Made by a program: the position numbers and the translations under genes. A model generated the notes under the pieces. The model made no database searches. It was not told the DNA's origin and saw only the letters and a program-made list of their open reading frames with translations. Shown here in pieces: positions 37,135 through 59,272 of a stretch of 64,000 nt of DNA. The stretch comes from Gossypium raimondii (lineage: Eukaryota; Streptophyta; Magnoliopsida; Malvales; Malvaceae). The stretch covers positions 3,906,001-3,970,000 of the forward strand of contig NC_068569.1 of assembly GCF_025698545.1 (NCBI RefSeq). The letters are read 5' to 3'. The number at the start of each line of letters is the position of its first letter. Within the stretch, counting starts at the first letter, position 1.

Positions 37135-38561
37135 GGGTTTTTTACAAAAATATTATAAAAAAATAAAAATTTATCAAAATATAATCTTTTTTTTATTTAC
37201 TAAAATATTATAATTTTTTTTATTTATCAAAATATACCAAAAAAACAGAAAAAAAAAATTGACACAGCCTGATCAGGCCAATGCCATTGGCGGCACCAAT
37301 GTGCCAAAGGACTAAAATGTGACCACTTGTAGTTTCAAGGATCTGACATGCAAATTTACCATTTTAAATTTTGAAAGTGAATGGCTGCTGTTGTGCGCAC
37401 TAAAAGTGAAATGTGGCTAATTGCCTTCTAAGCCCTCCTTATTTATTATTTATTTTTTATTCCCTTCAACTCATTTTTTTATTTAATAAACAAGCCCTTA
37501 ACCTATTTTTGTAGTTAAATAAGCTCTTAATCTATGATTTTTACTCATAAAAGCCATTTATTTTATTATTAAAGTAAATATATTTTACCTAAAGTAAAGC
37601 TATTTAAAAAGTATAAACTAATTAGCATTTTATGTATTATTTTCGTAATTTGATGAGAATAGTTTATTTAAAAATTTACTAAATTTGATGAGAATAGTTT
37701 ATAATAGTTTATTTTTCAATAAGGCATACACGGTATTTCTATTAATTTAAAATATAGTTATTAAATGAGAATAGTTTATTAAATTAAAATAGAGTTATAT
37801 TAATTTAAAATATAGTTATTAAATGAGAATAGTTTATTAAATTAAAATAATAACGAATATTTTATTAAATTAAAATAGAGTTATTACTTAATTAGAATTC
37901 TAAGTATCTTAATTATCACTTAATTATAAGTAATAATAAAACGATCACCTATAAATGTAACCCAAATAGAAAAATAAAGTATAATTATAAAATATTCTCA
38001 TCAAATTTAGTAAATTTTTAAATAAACTATTTTCATCAAATTACAAAAATAATACATAAAATGCGAATTAGTTTATACTTTTTAAATAGCTTTACTTTAG
38101 GTAAAATATATTTACTTTAATAATAAAATAAATGGCTTTTATGAGTAAAAATCATAGATTAAGAGCTTATTTAACTACAAAAATAGGTTAAGGGATTGTT
38201 TATTAAATAAAAAAGTGAGTTGAAGGGAATAAAAAGTAAATAATAAATAAGGAGGGCTTAGAAGGCAATTAGTCACATTTCACTTTTAGTGCCCACAACA
38301 GCGGCCATTCACTTTCAAAATTTAAAATGGTAAATTTACATGTCAGATCCTTGAAACTATAAGTGGTCACATTTTAGTCCTTTGGCACATTGGTGCCGCC
38401 AATGGCATTGGCCTCATCAGGCTGTGTCAATTTTTTTTTGTTTTTTTCTGTTTTTTTTGTATATTTTGGTAAATAAATTTTTTTATAATATTTTAGTAAA
38501 TAAAAAAAAGATTATATTTTGATAAATTTTTATTTTTTTATAATATTTTTGTAAAAAACCC
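37135..38561. mobile_element. Foldback transposon, 1.43 kb, Mutator-like (9-bp TSD, long terminal inverted repeats)
   Basis: The left end starts GGGTTTTTTACAAAAATATT and the right end is its complement, finishing TTTTGTAAAAAACCC at 38561. The arms are about 560 bp each (37135 to about 37700 and about 37990 to 38561). In the best stretch, CCAATGCCATTGGCGGCACC to TTTACC, only about three of 90 bases differ. The centre is an AT-rich loop with internal direct repeats of the 'gagaatagtttatt' type. Direct flanks AATGTTGAG (37126-37134) and AATGTTGGG (38562-38570) differ at one position and form a 9-bp target duplication, the length typical of Mutator-like elements. There is no transposase or captured gene, so it is non-autonomous. 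Confidence 0.85.
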
Positions 38562-45101: not shown

Positions 45102-46948
45102 ATGGGGAACGTAACGTCAAGCGTGGCCGCAAAGTTTGCGTTTTTCCCACCAGATCCACCAACGTACGAAGTTTGCAAGGATTCAGATGGGAGGCTGGTT
45201 TTGCCTGGGATCAGAGATGATTTGAACATGGATGTTCATTTGCTCGATACCAAAGGCGGCAATAAAATCGTAGCCAACTATTGGAAACACCCTATTGCCA
45301 AGTTAACCCTCTTGTATTCCCATGGCAATGCCGCTGACTTAGGCCAAATGCATGAACTCTTCATTGAGCTCAGAGCCCACCTCCGCGTCAATATTATGAG
45401 GTACCTTCCTTTATCTTTTTATTCGTTTCTCATCTTTTGCTTGGATTTTGATTATGTTCAACTCTTCTTCTCTCTTTTTTTTTTCTTTTTTTGCCTTTCG
45501 AGTTTAATGTATTTTGAGTTCGGTAGTTCTGTTTTTGTTTATATGTTTTGTACTATTTTGTTTTCAGCATAAAATTTGTCAGAAGGCTTATGATAATTGC
45601 TGTTGAAGCAACATGCTTTTGTCTTATGGAATTCTTTTTTAATTTGTTTTTCTTTTTGTCTTTGCATATTTGAGAACCACCAATCTTGTTTGTCAACTTT
45701 AAATTATTATTATTATTATTAAAACCAATTTCAGCCCATCATTGTTTTGCTTGCTTCAATTACAGGTCGGCCGGCTATCACTTTTCCTCCCTTAAAATAT
45801 AAATAATTTGTAATTTTAAGTAATGTTTGAACACAAAGCTTTTCATGAAAATGGCTTCAATTCTGTTTGTTTGCGTTTCACACCCATGTGTTTGACCATA
45901 TTCCAATTATCTTATGAATTGTATGGGGAAAGTAGCTAAAATGGTTTTTTAAAGGCAAAACCTGTTAGATATTATTTATTTATTTTCCTTTTCATTTTGC
46001 AGTTATGATTATTCAGGATATGGAGGATCATCCGGTAAGGTAAATAGGTCTTTGGGTTTGTGTTTATTCGTCTTTTCTTTTTCCATGTCTTTCTCTTTCC
46101 TTTGAGGGTCAACAACACCACAACATTGTGGATTAGTTTTTTACTTGTATGTCTAAATTTATGTCTGATAAGCTGCTTCCTTTTTTTTCCCTGAAATTGC
46201 GACAGCCAACAGAGCTGAACACATACTATGACATAGAGGCAGTGTACAATTGTTTGAAGAAGGAATATGGGGTTACGCAGGAAGATTTGATAATATATGG
46301 CCAATCGGTTGGAAGTGGACCCACCCTACATTTGGCTTCTCGTTTACAGAGACCAAGAGGAGTTGTTCTTCACAGTGCCATACTTTCGGGCATTAGGGTC
46401 CTTTATCCTGTCAAGATGACATTTTGGTTTGATATCTTCAAAGTAAGTTCCATTTTCACCTTCCTCTGAAACTCTAAATCTCTTCCTTTCTGCTGCAATC
46501 CTTAAAAATCATTTGGTCCGAATATTTGCAGAACATAGACAAAATACGACGAGTCAATTGTCCGGTTCTAGTTATACATGTAAGCATCCTTTCCATTGCA
46601 TCATTGTTCTGGTTACTTTGCTTAGTTACTCTTCTTTAATTTTAGTTATACAAATGTTTGCAGGGCACGGACGATGAGGTTGTCGACTGGTACCATGGGA
46701 AACGATTGTGGGAGCTTTCGAAGGAAAAGTACGAGCCTTTATGGGTAAAAGGTGGCGGCCATTGCAACCTGGAAACTTATCCCGAGTACATTAAACATCT
46801 ACGTAAGTTCATAAACACCGTGGAGAAGATTTCCATTACGAAACTAGAGAAAGAGCTCGATTCTAAACCTAGTTTTACAGAAGAAGAAACTAAACACAAT
46901 AAATGCTTGAGACTTAAGAAGAAGGTAGCTGGTTCCAAAAAGGAGTGA
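45102..46948 (+). CDS. ABHD17-like alpha/beta hydrolase (probable protein depalmitoylase), 5 exons
   Basis: Exons: 45102-45400, 46003-46039, 46206-46442, 46532-46579, 46664-46948; 301 aa. Serine-hydrolase triad: Ser in GQSVGSG (exon 3), Asp in the GTDDEVVD segment (start of exon 5) and His in GGGHCNLE (exon 5). [14 protein letters not shown] and [13 protein letters not shown] match the ABHD17 family, whose animal members remove palmitate from Ras and PSD-95. Animal ABHD17 is membrane-anchored by an N-terminal cysteine cluster; here the protein begins MGNVTSS, with Gly2 and Ser6, a candidate N-myristoylation signal. The basic C-terminus ([15 protein letters not shown]) could also bind membranes. 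Its 3' three quarters were duplicated 8 kb downstream. The plant substrate is unknown. Confidence 0.92.
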
Positions 46949-50300: not shown

Positions 50301-51140
50301 CAAAAATTATTTGGATTAATATTTTAAAATTTAAATATATGTTAAAACTATATTTTTAAAGCCGTTAAAAATAATTTAAATGTTTAAAAGATACACGCCA
50401 TTCATACGTTATATCAAATGTCATATAAATATAATGTAAACATAACTATTTCATTAAAACCTCGTAATATAACATATATTATTTTTTTGTGATATACTTG
50501 ATTGTATTTATTAATTAAATTATAATTTATTTTTAATTTAATATTTAAAAATTTAAAAGAATTGAAGAAAGTAAAAGCATAAAAAATGTTAAAATGAGAA
50601 ATTAAAATACTATTCTTTAAAATAATTTTATACAATAGTTATGGACATTTATATAATTTTTTAGAACTTTTAAAATAAAAAATATATATCTATTTTTATT
50701 TAAATTAAATAATTTATATTATATGATAATTTTAAATTTAATGAAATATTTAATAATAATTATCCAAGTATTAATTTAATTTAATTTTTTAATTTTTATA
50801 TAACATTTAATATAATTTTAAATTAATAATAACATTTAAAAAGTAAAAATAATAATGATGTTACACCACATTTGAATGAAATATTTATAAAACTGTTAAA
50901 TTTCTGTAGGATAAACCCAAATCCACGGTTAAGATTACTTAATTGATCGAGTCATAGGGCAGATATAGTAAAGTCTGTTATTTATAGTACTAGAATTACT
51001 TATCATTTTAATTGCAAAGCTTTACTTTTTCCTTTTCCACCATTTCAGTTTTGTTTTGGCTATCTGAGTTTAGATAGGCACAGTCGATAAACTTGACAAA
51101 GATTGTATCTGGGTGGGTGTTTGGATCCCTTATTTTATCA
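46949..51140. other. Long AT-rich intergenic region
   Basis: 4.2 kb with no supported gene. 46949-47335 is the ABHD17 3' flank. 48210-48790 is enriched in 'ttataac' and 'ttgttata' motifs in both orientations and looks like a decayed MITE or Mutator-type fragment, without definable ends. 49000-50850 is extremely AT-rich. The last about 150 bases carry the response-regulator leader. Confidence 0.5.
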
Positions 51141-53521
51141 ATGACCCTGCAGGAGAAAAGGGGTGGTTCCAATGGTGAAGATGGTGGTAAGGACCGGTTT
51201 CCAATTGGCATGCATGTTTTAGCAGTTGATGATGATCCTGTTTGTCTCAAAGTTTTGGAAAATCTCCTTCGTAAATGCCAATATCATGGTTAGTGGTTGT
51301 TTTTGTTTTCCCTTTTGAATGCTCTTGAAAATTTTTCTTTATTCTTATCTCAAAGGTTGAAATTTACATCTAGATTCTGCTCACAAGTTACGTGTTTACT
51401 GTTCTGTTTATTCTCAATCTTTAACTCAAAGTTTTATTTATTGTTCTCAAAATGTTAAATAAATGCTTCTGTCAGGAAGATCTGTGTGAAGTGATTAGGG
51501 TCTTTGTAATTGTAGAATGCTAGGTTGACTTGTAACAATGCTAAGACAGTGGGCTTCTTTTTGACATATCATGCATGTTTTCTTTTTCTGCAGTTTCCAC
51601 AACCAATCAGGCAACTACGGCCCTCAAAATGTTGAGGGAAAACAGGAACAGATATGACTTGGTTATTACTAGTGTTAACATGCCAGACATGGATGTCTTT
51701 AAGCTTCTTGAACTCGTGGGGCTTGAAATGGACCTACCTGTAATCAGTAAGTATTTACCCCTTTTTTCCATTTTATGGCACTGAATTATTCCCATTTGAT
51801 TTTGCTCTTTCCCCTCTTTTGTCTTTTGAATTATTTGTGGAATGAATGAAAATTTTTTTTGGGTAAAGTTTGATGGTTTTATAAACCCATAATTATTCTG
51901 GATCTAAATTTGAATAGTAGATTAGAAGTGTTTGAGAGCGATTTATACCATATTATCTCATTCTTGATGAAATTCCAGTGTTGTCAACTCATGGCGATAC
52001 AGAGCTTGTAATGAAGGGGATTACTCATGGCGCTTGTGACTACTTATTGAAGCCAGTTCGCATCGAGGAGCTAAAAAACATATGGCAACACGTTGTGAGA
52101 AAAAACAAACCTGACTTTAAATATCACGTTAATGCACTGAACCAAGATAACGGACACGAAGATGAGGATCCCTCGATCCAGGAAAAGCCTCGAGTTGTTT
52201 GGTCTGATGAGGTGCATAGGAAGTTTGTTTCAGCTGTCAACGAATTGGGTCTTGATAGTGAGTTTTATGCTGTTTAGATTAGTGTCTCTTACTGTGACGC
52301 AGCAGACCAGCTTCATTTTTAGTTTTAATTTTTCATTTTCTCTTTATTTAAATGATTCAGAGGCTGTTCCGAAGAAAGTTCTTGACCTTATGAATGTTGA
52401 AGGCCTCAAAAGGGAAACTGTAGCAAGCCATCTACAGGTAATGTCCTTATGAATGCTGAGGCTCACAAGGGAAAACGTAACAACCAATCTGCTAGTTTTA
52501 GTGGAGTGTTTTGTTACCATTTTACTCCTTGTTAGAATTAGCACATTGTTAATGAAGTTATTGCAACTTCAGTTCAAGCTATTGTAAGAGTTAGGTTGGC
52601 CCATACACATGGGAGAATTGCATATACTTGAAGTATGAGCTTTTATAAAGTGTGCAGTATTTAAGCTTACTATCTTATGTTGTCTTGCAGAAATATAGGC
52701 TTTACATAGGACACAGCATTGTTGCTGCATTAGGCAGTAAAGATCCGTCTTACTTCCGCATGGGTCCATTGGACGGCTTTGGATATTTTCACACATTGAC
52801 TGGACCTGGAAGGATTTCAAGTGCCTCTCTGCCATCTTATCAACCAGGTGGAATGTTTGGGAGACTGAACTCCTCAGCTGCTTTAAGCCTACATGGGATT
52901 TCTTCTAGCGTGATTCAACCTGGACATTGTCAAACATTGAATAATCCGATCAATGGTTCTGGGAAGATCCAGCCAGCCGTGGTACCTGCAAACCAGAAAA
53001 AAAATGGAACTTTGTTTCAAGGGATCCCAACATCGGTAGATCTCAATCAACCGACACAGAACAAGCCCACCAACGGTTGTGGAGAATTTAATCGTGTTAA
53101 TGATCCGAACTTCCAAGATGCCAGAATGGCGGTTGGTGGCTCGTGTAATACTCTACATGTTTCCTCAGGCAACCCTTTGTTGTTACAATCAAACACACAA
53201 CAAACGAAACATAGTGGTACATTTGGAAATCAAGCATCCCTTAGTAACAGCCTTCTTGATCTTTATTCTTTCAAGGCAAAATCAGCAAATTTGGGGGACT
53301 CTAAAGGAGACATCTCCAATGTTGGCCTAAATAATTATATCATTCTGAATATTGATTATGCAAAAAAGCAACAGTGGGGAGATAGCAGACACGATAATAA
53401 CGGCAATACGAATCATTCATTCTGCCGAGCGGATTCCCTGGTTCTGTTTTTGTTTGTATGTTTTGTGTTATTTTGTTGTGTGTATAAGATATGTCAGAAG
53501 ACTTATGATGCTTGGTGTTGA
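51141..53521 (+). CDS. Type-B response-regulator-like protein, pseudo-receiver + GARP/Myb domain, 3' end replaced
   Basis: Exons: 51141-51288, 51594-51746, 51979-52257, 52361-52437, 52691-53521; 495 aa. Type-B regulators are nuclear transcription factors of cytokinin signalling, switched on by phosphorylation of a receiver Asp. The receiver (about 24-140) keeps the acidic triad in LAVDDDP (30-32), Ser103 and the Lys of LKPVR (125), but the phospho-acceptor site reads VITSVNMP with Ser76 (codon AGT at 51671) where Asp is expected; MPDMDG is MPDMDV and the usual MSADDS is LSTHGD. The DNA-binding GARP domain is intact: [20 protein letters not shown] ... [14 protein letters not shown] ... TVASHLQKYRLY. 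The last about 27 residues, from codon 468 or so, come from duplicated ABHD17 intron DNA and are strongly hydrophobic. Exons that normally follow in this family are absent. Whether it is expressed or a decaying gene is unknown. Confidence 0.85.
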
Positions 53522-55690
53522 AGCAACATGTTCCTTCAACGCTTTCTTTTTTTAATTTGTTTTGCTTGCTTTTAATTTCAGGTTGGCCGGCTGTAACTTC
53601 TCCATTTTATCTTCTTCCCTTAAAAAAATAAAAATGGATAAATAAATGAATTTTCATTTTATTTGATGTCCGAACACAAGCCCTCTTTTTTTTTCCTCAA
53701 AGAGCCTTTCATGAAATGGCTTAAACTCTTCTTTGTTTGCATTTAACACAAATGTGGTTAACCCATATTTTAATCCATCTTATATAAGTAAATAGAAAAT
53801 AAAATTAAGGATATTTGAGAAGAATTTATGCATGTTTCCGATACTCACGGTGCTCCTATAGCATAAAAATGAATCCTCAATATATTTTTTTAATTTATGT
53901 CCAATTATCTTATTTGTGTTATTCCTTTTGTTATTATTATTGCTTCAATCTATCCCATAAAAAAATGAAGATTTAGTTATGATTTGAAATACATTTTCTA
54001 TTTTATCTATTAATCTTTTCCTCATACTTATTCGATTGAAAGTATTGATGCAATTGAAAAAAAATTATGTTTTGTAATTTTATAATTTAATTTTTAGTTA
54101 GAATATAATTAAATATATATAATTTAATTGGCCTTAAATCCAAATAGCGATGATCTATATTCTTCCTCAAATCTTTCGTTGAGAGGTAAATGATTAAATT
54201 CTTTTAAAAAATAAAATTTTGTTCGAATATAAATCAAATCGCTTAACTCTTAGAATTAATAAAACGAATCACACTTTTACCACTAAATTATACCCGCTAG
54301 AATGCTATTTATTTTGCAGTTATTATTATTCAGGACATGAAGATCTTCCCGCAAGGTAGAAGAGTCTTTAAGTTTGTATCTATTCGTCTTCTTTCTTTTT
54401 CTTGTCTTTCTCTTTGTTTTGAGGGTAAACAACACTGCAACATTCCGGATTTTTTTTTTAATTATCTCATTATACAATGACTAAAATTATTCATAATTTC
54501 TTTTCAATGAACTCGAGCGCACGTATTCTTGTATTGACAACAATGTCTATATCGATTGAGTTAAGACTCAATCGACGAATGTCCGTTGATTTTTAAATTG
54601 ATTGAAAATTTTATTTGGTAGAAAAATGTTTTTGCCTGTATGTATAACTTTCTATATGATAAGTTGCTTTCATTTCCCCTTGTAATTGCAATGGCCAACA
54701 GAATTCATCACGTATTATGACATGAAGGCAGTGTACAATTGTTTGAAGAAGGAATATGGGGATATGGCCAATCTGTTGGAAGGGGAGCCACCCTTTCGGG
54801 CATTTTGGTTTGATATTTTCAAAGCATTTTTACCTTCCTCTAAACTCTAAACACTTCCTTTCTGCTGCAATCCTTAAAAATCATTCGGTCGGAATATTTG
54901 CAGAACATAGACAAAATACGACGAGTCAACTGTCCGGTTCTAATCCAGTTATACATGTTAGTATCTTTTCCATTGCATCATTATTTTGGTTACCTTCCTT
55001 AGTTCTTCACTTTTAGTTATACAAATGTCTGCATGGCAAAAACGTTGAGGTTGTCGATTGGTATCATGCGAAACGATTATGGGAGCTTATGAGGGAAAAA
55101 TAGGAGCCTTTATGGGTGAAAGGTGGCGGCCATTTGCAACCTGGAAACTTATCCCGAGTATATTAAACATCTACGCAAGTTCATAAATGCCATGGAGAAG
55201 AAATCCATTACGAAACCAGACAAGGAGATTGATTCTAAACCCAGTTTTACAGAAGAAGAATCTAACCACAATAAATGCTTCAGAACAGGTAGATAATACT
55301 ACTCATTTGTCTCCTACAGTTCATCCGACTCACTTCATCACCGAGGGACTGGCAGCCATGGTTCCTTGAGCTTTGATGTTGATCGGCTTCAATAAAACAT
55401 TGTAAGCTGATAGGAACCATAGATATATGTAGTCTCTTTGATTTTGAACCATTTATGGCCGCCCAAGTGTTCCATCAGAAAAATATATCACGGAGAACAT
55501 ATGGTTCTTGGTCTAGGGTTTCGTGTATAATTTTAAAGTGAAATATAAATGCTCCTCGAAATTTCACTGGACTAAGGTCCAAACCTCCATTGAAGAGGAC
55601 CCAATATGTGCATAAATTATTGTATTCTATTTATACCCAATTCCTCAAAATCGGGGACCGACCCATTATTTCTATCTTTGGAACAAACTC
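53436..55690 (+). repeat. Segmental duplication of the ABHD17 3' region
   Basis: Runs parallel to 45527-47335. The left edge is at about 53440, where GTTCTGTTTTTGTTTGTATG in the regulator's last exon matches 45526 onward; both continue through GTTGAAGCAACATG, GGCCGGCT, coding remnants and a 3' flank ending near CCCATTATTTCTATCTTTG. The copy has extra DNA at about 53800-54280 and 54480-54650 that is not in the source. Exon 1 and the promoter were not copied. Confidence 0.85.
54320..55297 (+). pseudogene. ABHD17-like pseudogene (exons 2-5 only)
   Basis: Remnants of exon 2 (about 54320-54355), exon 3 (54693-54824), exon 4 (54904-54955) and exon 5 (55035-55297) in the same order as the functional gene at 45102-46948. 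Damage seen: no exon 1 or start; the AG before exon 3 has become GG and that before exon 5 is AT, so both acceptors are lost; two internal deletions in exon 3 remove much of the region around the nucleophile Ser; a 5-base insertion in exon 4; GTDDE is changed to GKNVE, losing the acidic pair; and AAATAG creates a stop at 55101-55103. No protein is expected. Confidence 0.9.
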
Positions 55691-58134
55691 AGGTTTGAAG
55701 ACTAAACGAGCAAATATTAATGATTATAGTTGTAAACGAGCAAAGAGTGCTATCTCAGCTACTCGAGACAAGAAGTGGCTAAAGAATTAAGATTTCGGAG
55801 TTTTTTTTTTTTTCTTTCTAATATGATATGATTACTATTTTTGATTAAACAAATAGTGAAGATTGCGTTGCATGGCTGGAACCGAGCTAGTTTTGTGGCA
55901 AATTGGATAATGATTTGTAAACATGTCGCCCACAAATCAGCGACCATATACACTAGAAAGAGACGGCTATAAAGCAAACTAGAAAATTAAACATGTAGAG
56001 AAGGTTTGCTTGAAATCGATGATTTACAACTATAATCATTAGGGAAAAAACCCTCTTTCTCAACCATGGATTTATACATGACATTAAAACAAATTCGAAT
56101 AAAATAAATTATTTGATTTATTAAATTTAAAAAAAAAAAATTTTAGAATTATATTCAAATAATAATTGGAATGAACTCAAATTTATTAGTATCAAAATAA
56201 GATAAGTTTAGGGTTACTGGACTAAAATTGATTTTATAAATTTTTTTAACAGTAAATGGATCACGGTCTTCCTTTTCTATCATTTCAGTGTTTGATGTAG
56301 GAACAACAAATGACAGCTAGCTAAGCTAGATTTGCGGTATCTACAACCAAGAAGATACACGTTCCAATTAATGTTTCAATAATTTTATACAATTTTTCGT
56401 TACTGTTCTTTAATCAACATCTTAGCACTTCACCTCCACCCCCCCCAGAAAAAAACAAATTATTCATTAATAATTTGTATCAGTCATTATTAGCTCCTAA
56501 CTCTAAGATTTAAGATAATGTTTAGAGTAGTATTTTAGCTACAATTAAATAAACAATTTATGCTTAGGTATTAGTTAAATATTTCTTTTTATTGAATTCA
56601 TCATTTTTATATTTGTTAAAGATTATGTGACACGAATCCTGTCACTTGTTGAAAAAATAAATACAGTGATAAAATAAGGGGATCTGTGGGAGCTGGGGTG
56701 TGGACCATTAAGCACAAAACTGGATTGGGGTTGCGACCGGATGTGGGGGTGGAGCCCTCACGGTACGGACCATACCGCACAAGTTGAGTCCGTATAAAAC
56801 TATACTTCTACTATCGGACTTTGATTAGAATTGAGTTTTTCAACCCTTAAAATAGATGTGGTTAAAACTCTTCTGCCCGTGATTTTTTTCCCAAAAAAAT
56901 TTCCACGTAAAATCTGTGTGGCCTTATTTTTTTTCTTATTGCTTTGCAATCTTCTACCATCATTATCGTCTTTAATTATAACAATATTAATTAGAAAGAT
57001 AATAATTTAATTAATTGAGTCTTAGTTCTATTGACATCGGTGTTATTGTAATACATTGAAGGACGTGAAATTAAGCGCATTTATGCGTATAATAACTTCA
57101 ATTTAGAGATTTAAAAAAATATTAATAGTTTAAAAAGTTGTATAAAAACATTAATTGCATTTTTATAATAATATATGATTAACACTTCTATTAAATAAAC
57201 AAACTGCCAACTTCCCCACCTTTAAGGATTCCAAATTTTTAGTGAAATGCTACATCTGTATTTTGCTTTTAGACTCGTCACGTGGCTAAGGCTAAGTTAC
57301 ATTAATTACTTTATTATAAAGTTTATAAACATTTATGCATTAAAATGGAAGCTCCTAGGAAGCCCACTTCTCACTATGCCATTAACTATAATGTGGCAAT
57401 AGAGAATATTCTTGTGAAAGACACTGACAACATTAGGGCAATTTCTATTTTCAATTTTTTTATAATTAACTCCAATGCTTAGAATCATTAATCAACAAAT
57501 TAAAAGGTTAGTAATATTTATTATTAAATGGACTTCGTTTTTGAAATTTACAAATATCATTGTAACTATTATAACCACATTATTTATTTATTTAGACGAA
57601 AATATTATACAGTTACATTTTTTAAAAATAATGGTGAAAACTTGTCGTAAACTAACATTTAAATATATCACAGAAATAGAAATAGAAAAAAGAAAAAAAA
57701 AACATCCATATGTGAGTCAAATGCATGTCAAAAAGAAAAAGCATGTAGTGTACGAGAAATTCCTACACCAGGGAACATGAAAGTTTTTGGAAGACATGCA
57801 GACAAAACAGCATAGATTCTTTGACGCCACTGGCAATGAATACCAAGCAAATGAAAGCCGTAACCAACAGAAGATATCATCATAAAAGGAAGGTAACATG
57901 AATTCTTTTTTCTTTTTATATAAATTTATATATTAATGATGGAATAAATTTATGCCGATCTTATCAAAAATAAAATTATTCTTATTTAATTTTTTAAAAT
58001 TTTATTAAAATCATTTAGTTTAATGTAAGTTACGTGGAGATTATGTTACCTTTAATATTATATCATTTAAATTTTAATAAAATCATTTAGCTGAATCATT
58101 TATACTATGGCATGAATTTGAACTGTGTTTCTGT
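55691..58134. other. Intergenic, no gene seen
   Basis: AT-rich apart from a GC-richer stretch at about 56680-56800 for which I have no explanation. Frames here are short and compositionally random. The 101-residue frame at 57475 is Lys/Ile-rich with no similarity. Confidence 0.5.
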
Positions 58135-59272
58135 CACCCAATTATGCCTGTGTTTCTGTTTTAGTCGCTTAACTTTAAATTTTTTTTAATTTGGACACTA
58201 AAGTTTGAATTTGTTACTGTTTTGGTTACTCATTGTTAAATTGATAACGGAAGGTCTTTTTCTAATTGGTATAATAACACATTTAGCCCTCAATACTTTC
58301 ATATTCTATCAATTTGATCATAATTCTAAACAGTTCAATAAATTAATCCTTCACATTTACAAATTCTATCAATTTAGTCCTCAAACTTCCTAACTAAAGC
58401 TTTCAAATTTTTGAAACAGAGGCATTCCACTTCTATTAATTATTTTATTTATGGTTGAAATTATCTAATTCGATACATAACTCTTTTGTTTATATTTCTA
58501 TGAAGTTAGTGTTAGAAATTAACTAAATACCATTAAAATAATAGAAAATAAAATTTAAAAATATAATATAGGTATATATAATAAAATTATATAAATAATT
58601 TAACATTTGTAAAAAATAATATTTTTCACTCTGGCTAGCATAATTTTAAAGAAAAAAATAGAGAAAATCGGTTCAATCGTCAAATTAATGAAATTTTTAG
58701 TCCGACTCAATTGGTTCGCGGATTGATTGGCTCAATCTTTTATTTCGAATTAGGACCTTGATAGGTTCTAGATCCAACTTCTTAAAAGATATTTCTAAAA
58801 TTATGCTAGTCAAAGTGAAAATTATTTTTAAAAAAATATTAAATTATTTATGTAATTTTATTATATATATTATATTTTAGAATTTTTATTTTCTATTATT
58901 TTTAATGGTGTTTAGTTAATTTCTAATACTAACTTCTTAAAAATATAAAAAGGGTTATATACCGAATTGGATAATTTCAACCATAAATAAAAAGAATAGT
59001 AGATGTGAAATGCCTCTATTTTAAAAGCTAAAAGCTTTGGTTGAGAAGTTTGTGGATGATACAAATTGTAAATGTGAAGGGTTAAATTTATTGAATTATT
59101 TAGAATTAGGATCAATTTGATAGAAAATGTAAGTATTGAGGACTAACTGTGTTATTGTACCAGTTAGAATAAGGCTTTCCATTATCAATTTAATCGCGAG
59201 TGACTAAAACATGAACAAATTCAAAAGTTAAAGGCTAATTAAAAAATTTTAAACCAAACATAATTGAGTAAC
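58135..59272. repeat. Long palindromic (foldback) element, about 1.14 kb
   Basis: The left arm (58135 to about 58650) and right arm (about 58793 to 59272) are inverted copies. For example GCTAGCATAATTTTA (58633) pairs with TAAAATTATGCTAGTCAA (58797), TTTATGGTTGAAATTATC (58449) pairs with GATAATTTCAACCATAAAT (58971), and CTATCAATTTGATCA (58308) pairs with GATCAATTTGATAG (59110). The outer ends resemble 'ggttactcaattatg'. The spacer is about 140 bp. There are many mismatches, so it is older than the 37 kb element. No target duplication was resolved and it contains no gene; the two frames of 62 and 67 residues are mirror images of one another. Confidence 0.75.

Follow-up and report, generated by a model that had tools for sequence, protein, structure and literature searches.

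Within the 64 kb window (the whole stretch of DNA analysed, C5:3906001-3970000), an ABHD17-like alpha/beta hydrolase gene is followed in the same orientation by a chimeric type-B response-regulator gene, RR1, which runs directly into a half-copy of the hydrolase gene that has no 5' part; a second, intact type-B regulator, RR2, starts 3.1 kb beyond the window end (Table 1, where positions past that end continue the window numbering). Genome searches took in the 750 Mb assembly of 281 contigs, 13 of them 48-63 Mb long. The hydrolase product matches Abhydrolase_1 (3.3e-11) and Hydrolase_4 (7.3e-11) in Pfam, which supports the fold family only, and ABHD17 is the name that we presume for it. Exon 1 of this gene has three matches genome-wide (C5, C7 and C6), one of them at this locus. 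Self-comparison of the window also revealed a 1.4 kb stretch (37135-38561) that matches its own reverse complement at 88%, and is thus a long inverted repeat, and a 1.1 kb stretch between the half-copy and RR2 (58174-59253) that does so at 77%.

Table 1. Features of the locus and of related loci elsewhere in the assembly, in window coordinates unless a locus is named
Feature	Position	Strand	Basis or remark
Intact ABHD17-like alpha/beta hydrolase gene, parental copy	45102-46948	+	Exon joins, open frame, 301 aa
ABHD17 exons (5)	45102-45400, 46003-46039, 46206-46442, 46532-46579, 46664-46948	+	
ABHD17 intron 1	45401-46002	+	
Left breakpoint of the duplicated unit, within ABHD17 intron 1	45526	+	Identity to 53441 onward starts here
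Upstream stretch common to RR1 and RR2	50872-50937 (RR2: 66393-66456)	+	83% over 66 bp
RR1, 5' copy of the type-B response-regulator gene fused to intron sequence	51141-53521	+	5 exons, 495-aa open frame
RR1 exons	51141-51288, 51594-51746, 51979-52257, 52361-52437, 52691-53521	+	GT/AG borders, stop-free translation
RR1 slice also present inside three transposon-like elements (C3, C10, C13)	51323-53437	+	RR1-specific changes shared
Codon at the phosphoacceptor position	51671-51673	+	Codon comparison: Ser (AGT) in RR1, Asp (GAT) in RR2 and the C7 copy
Joint of the duplication, where the regulator exon passes into ABHD17 intron 1	53440-53442	+	Three-way comparison; 2-base overlap (GT)
5'-less ABHD17 half-copy, from intron 1 into the 3' flank	53441-55726	+	Collinear blocks
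Intron-derived coding tail and TGA (53519-53521)	53443-53521	+	Contains the hydrophobic stretch, the first two residues of which are at the joint
Repeat insertion in the intron remnant of the half-copy	53935-54309	+	Multi-copy in the genome; best matches 81-85%, 40 of 414 candidates scored
RR2, intact type-B response regulator	67092-70115 (C5:3973092-3976115)	+	6 exons, 697 aa
Slice-bearing loci	L013 3500-4861; L014 (minus strand); L015 1558-8808; L069; L070		

A preliminary description of this DNA had proposed a chimeric reading frame, and the five exons indeed form one stop-free frame of 495 aa; the 27 additional open codons that it had counted are 26 residues and the stop. The RR1 receiver domain is recognized (Response_reg, PF00072, 1.8e-22, 80 bits against a Pfam cut-off of 30.2), while the GARP/Myb-like region scores 22.6 bits for Myb, below the cut-off of 24.4 and against 35.1 in RR2, and RR1 has lost 27 bp immediately after the Myb-matched part. 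The codon at the position that we take to be that of the acceptor Asp lies in a stretch that aligns with ARR1. Directly upstream, RR1 has 124 bp where the corresponding part of RR2 has 574 bp, and the copy of the regulator on C7, described below, aligns with RR2 at 66656-67134, which covers most of the upstream part that is shortened in RR1. As a separate observation, the intron after exon 4 contains a partial repeat of the end of that exon (52386-52490), as it does in RR2 (68491-68537).

RR2 has the receiver domain with its Asp, the GARP domain and the full C-terminus, and in a search of the PDB set residues 1-289 were matched to ARR1 with an E value of 4e-93. Past the position of the joint, RR2 continues through the remainder of exon 5 and then exon 6 to 70115, a normal 3' end, whereas in RR1 the regulator sequence stops at the joint and the normal C-terminal region and distal exons are absent. 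A 301 bp piece of the distal regulator sequence has two matches in the genome, RR2 on C5 and one on C8, and none adjoining RR1; this search missed the more diverged C7 copy, although a copy as close as RR1 and RR2 are to each other (80-85%) should be detectable.

The joint itself is sharply defined. That the regulator exon runs uninterrupted into DNA of ABHD17 intron 1, from 45526 onward, had been read correctly in the preliminary description: 53441-53567 matches 45526-45654 with 80% identity (E 3.7e-25 in the 64 kb self-comparison), and the three-way comparison agrees. In 20 bp windows, identity to the intact regulator copy drops from 16-18/20 left of 53440 to 4/20, and identity to ABHD17 intron 1 rises across the joint from 3-8/20 to 18/20, while the RR1-RR2 alignment stops at 53442/69705, exactly the joint. 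The transition therefore lies a few bases to the right of 53436-53440, where it had first been placed. The 2-base overlap found there is what end-joining would leave. The end of RR1-RR2 identity is also the first base of the half-copy, whose collinear blocks span exon, intron and 3' sequence and extend up to 47374 in the parental gene and to about 55726 in the half-copy.

The coding frame of the half-copy is broken by stops and frame changes. This bears on the suggestion that a cryptic donor near the joint lets RR1 pre-mRNA splice to ABHD17 exons 2-5, giving a regulator-hydrolase fusion. GT sites do lie just downstream of the joint, and elsewhere an arrangement of this kind, in which the 5' portion of a gene precedes the 3' portion of another, gives fusion transcripts (PMC5460883); since the half-copy exons are broken, however, no full hydrolase part is possible, and we regard such a fusion as very unlikely.

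Considering this arrangement, we conclude that the RR1 chimera very probably arose by one tandem duplication. In the proposed event, a head-to-tail duplication would have started in ABHD17 intron 1 and ended within the large exon 5 of a downstream type-B regulator in the same orientation, turning an ancestral order a1-a2...r1-r2 into a1-a2...r1|a2'...r1'-r2, such that RR1 would be r1, a 5' stump running straight into ABHD17 intron 1 and fused to the 5'-less half-copy, and RR2 the downstream, intact regulator copy. A single event of this kind predicts one joint, two intact parents, one 5' stump and one 5'-less half-copy, and intact parents do flank the chimera in the same orientation, ABHD17 (301 aa) upstream and RR2 (697 aa) downstream. 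Noncoding divergence is 153/1008 (15.2%) in the ABHD17 half and 147/858 (17.1%) in the regulator half (p 0.28 for the difference; a stricter alignment of the regulator noncoding part gives 106/770, or 13.8%), and this similarity is consistent with one event. The spacer was also considered as proof of a single event and was dropped for that purpose, the background being AT-rich and the wrong strand nearly as good: its best match scores 97 bits against 81 on the wrong strand, with 60 shuffles reaching at most 58. Clear alignment is confined to the ABHD17 3' flank and to 66 bp ahead of the regulators, and since most of the spacer has no convincing alignment, collinearity in the middle rests on the two ends and the 66 bp stretch.

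The preliminary description had instead pictured a segmental duplication that truncated the gene by overwriting its 3' end, with both breakpoints and the donor in the window. The duplication, the junction and the donor gene all stand. The mechanism, on the other hand, appears to be tandem duplication, by which RR1 would never have been complete: the later regulator exons said to be gone are absent from RR1 because they were never part of that copy, and they are present in RR2, 3.1 kb past the window. The joint is then the internal boundary of the tandem duplication and the single novel one, the outer ends of the unit being ancestral sequence. Insertion of an ABHD17 fragment into a once complete RR1, replacing its 3' end, would leave a local junction identical to the one seen; but it requires a duplication of the regulator plus a separate insertion that ends exactly where RR1-RR2 identity ends, RR2 and the half-copy are ordered as expected from a single duplication, and both halves are similarly diverged, so that we consider this sequence of events most unlikely. 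That the arrangement is an artefact of assembly, in favour of which nothing was found, is less probable still, to the point of being negligible, given that the copies lie 15-17% apart in noncoding sequence, far above assembly error.

A block on C7, which is paralogous within the same genome and not an orthologue, presents the two genes in an unduplicated arrangement. There, an ABHD17 match is followed about 14 kb on by one regulator with its 3' end in place, the relative orientation of the two being the same as here; this regulator has an open frame whose alignment with RR2 extends past the position of the joint. Between the pair no further match to either gene is listed, the interval 50641000-50650060 being covered by the match search alone.

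Part of RR1 has also travelled. The slice given in Table 1 recurs in three elements, of which the one on C13 covers only part of it, and these dispersed copies carry the RR1-specific deletions in the parts that they hold as well as the Asp-to-Ser change (Ser in 3/3). The elements share a 5' flank, with eight genome matches of more than 540 bases, the three elements included, and, on the 3' side, a tail about 620 bp long that aligns among C3, C10 and C13. The possibility that this tail is a diverged RR1 tail was rejected: among the matches listed, those to 53438-54100 did not exceed chance, and the element family of the tail is also represented on C6 and C4, where no regulator slice was found. 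By eye, the C3 element has two ends that are similar in inverted orientation, with TAA adjoining, and we take it to be a PIF/Harbinger-like element with a captured gene fragment. The slice is a gene fragment taken up into a DNA-transposon-like family, by one capture common to the three elements, and it was later interrupted by insertions. Its right end (53437) lies only 3-5 bases from the joint (53441), a closeness for which we offer no explanation beyond chance. Two side observations concern these copies: the C3 and C10 slices appear to be without one unit of the exon 4/intron repeat, and the 5' flank of the C3 element (L015 820-960) contains, by eye, an apparent exon of another plant gene, with some resemblance to a PPR protein, so that the C3 element may carry several gene pieces.

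What became of RR1 after the duplication was assessed from lineage-specific codon changes, with the C7 copy as outgroup and only at codons where sister and outgroup agree (280 for RR1, 243 for RR2); 52386-52495 was excluded because of the partial repetition of exon 4. Nonsynonymous changes number 43 in RR1 and 10 in RR2, synonymous ones 19 and 12; omega is accordingly about 0.87 for RR1 (p 0.67 when tested against no constraint) and 0.35 for RR2 (p 0.018). The two genes do not differ significantly in these counts (p 0.07). By part, omega in RR1 is 0.57 in the receiver, 1.02 in the GARP region and 1.85 in the C-terminal part, none of them significant, and it is 0.58, also non-significant, since the transposon capture. 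RR1 contains no frameshift and no stop where 2.4 would be expected without constraint (chance 0.09). Moreover, the four coding deletions of the RR1 lineage (105, 27, 21 and 216 bp) are all multiples of three, as against 2/25 noncoding indels (p 6e-4), or 2/13 of those of at least 3 bp (p 0.006), in a comparison that is post hoc, with uncertain event numbers and with lengths derived from alignments and from exon and block lengths. Since the dispersed copies that cover the deletion sites show no indel there relative to RR1, these deletions predate the capture. Between RR1 and the dispersed copies, exons differ by 10.0-11.3% and noncoding sequence by 7.3-8.4%, and this greater divergence of the exons argues against continued constraint.

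We infer from the sequence that RR1 is or was translated, as its frame stayed open through in-frame deletions while the ABHD17 half-copy decayed; the duplication was probably followed by a period in which the frame was maintained, with weak or no constraint since, as far as these small counts can tell. RR1 has lost its phosphoacceptor and its distal exons, together with part of the GARP region and much of the immediate upstream sequence, so that it is most likely a chimera in decay, or one with weak function at best, and not a working cytokinin-response factor. Whether it is already a dead pseudogene whose open frame survives by chance, a matter of its fate that is compatible with an origin by tandem duplication, is to our minds evenly poised. 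An omega so close to neutrality since the duplication, exons that evolve no more slowly than noncoding sequence, the lost acceptor Asp, the DNA-binding score under the cut-off and the shortened upstream part all speak for such a pseudogene; against it stand the missing stops and frameshifts, the in-frame deletions, the lower though non-significant omega values of the receiver and of the time since capture, and the fact that stops do occur in the three captured copies, numbering 7, 3 and 4 over 400, 398 and 284 codons.

The one feature that could lift RR1 above a degenerate chimera is the hydrophobic tail that makes up part of its last 26, intron-derived residues. The frame of this tail and its stop are likewise open within the ABHD17 intron itself, so that the tail was probably present from the moment of the duplication. 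Its length is ordinary, 482 of 2361 start points (20%) in nearby introns staying open for 26 codons. Its hydrophobicity is less so: the 15-residue stretch has a mean Kyte-Doolittle value of 3.38, which none of the 2361 start points reached, and 18 of them reached 3.0, the best lying in the ABHD17 source stretch itself. It is conceivable, though quite improbable, that RR1 is a translated, phosphorylation-independent variant whose tail would anchor it to a membrane and titrate partners in the cytokinin pathway away from the nucleus. A literature search that combined type-B response regulator, transmembrane and membrane-tethered found nothing, and among the matches listed for chimeric genes with intron-derived ends most concern human disease or human cells.

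Finally, several known systems offer a comparison. As in the type-B regulators ARR1 and ARR10 (PDB 8xat, 1irz), the receiver and a GARP/Myb-like region are recognizable in RR1. Unlike these proteins, RR1 has no acceptor Asp, its GARP region is cut short at the end, its distal exons are missing and a foreign hydrophobic tail has been added. Tandemly duplicated type-B regulators are described from rice and Brassica rapa (PMC5975490), and these resemble the present copies, except that a chimeric joint was not found in the accessible part of that source. A survey of four cotton species states that it detected no tandem duplicate RR pairs (PMC9380331), and the accessible text of PMC10102465 contains nothing on this RR1/RR2 pair; provided that the present genome is likewise that of a cotton, the locus suggests that gene-family surveys can miss tandem copies like RR1 and RR2. 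The mechanism, standard tandem duplication, is an ordinary, known route to chimeric genes. In Drosophila yakuba, tandem duplications that ignore gene boundaries make chimeric genes and recruit non-coding sequence (PMC5460883), and the present case is like these in that the 5' portion of a gene ends up joined to a neighbouring gene's 3' portion, or to formerly unexpressed sequence. It differs from the cases given there in that the RR1 break runs from exon to intron, so that the frame enters intron sequence and not a downstream exon, and in that the duplication is old (15-17% noncoding divergence) and known from sequence alone, where those segregate in a population sample. Such an exon-to-intron break can add a hydrophobic tail in one step. 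With both parents, a joint defined within 3 bases and an unduplicated paralogous block, the locus is an unusually complete case of its kind, in which the three transposon-carried slices put part of the decay of RR1 in order.
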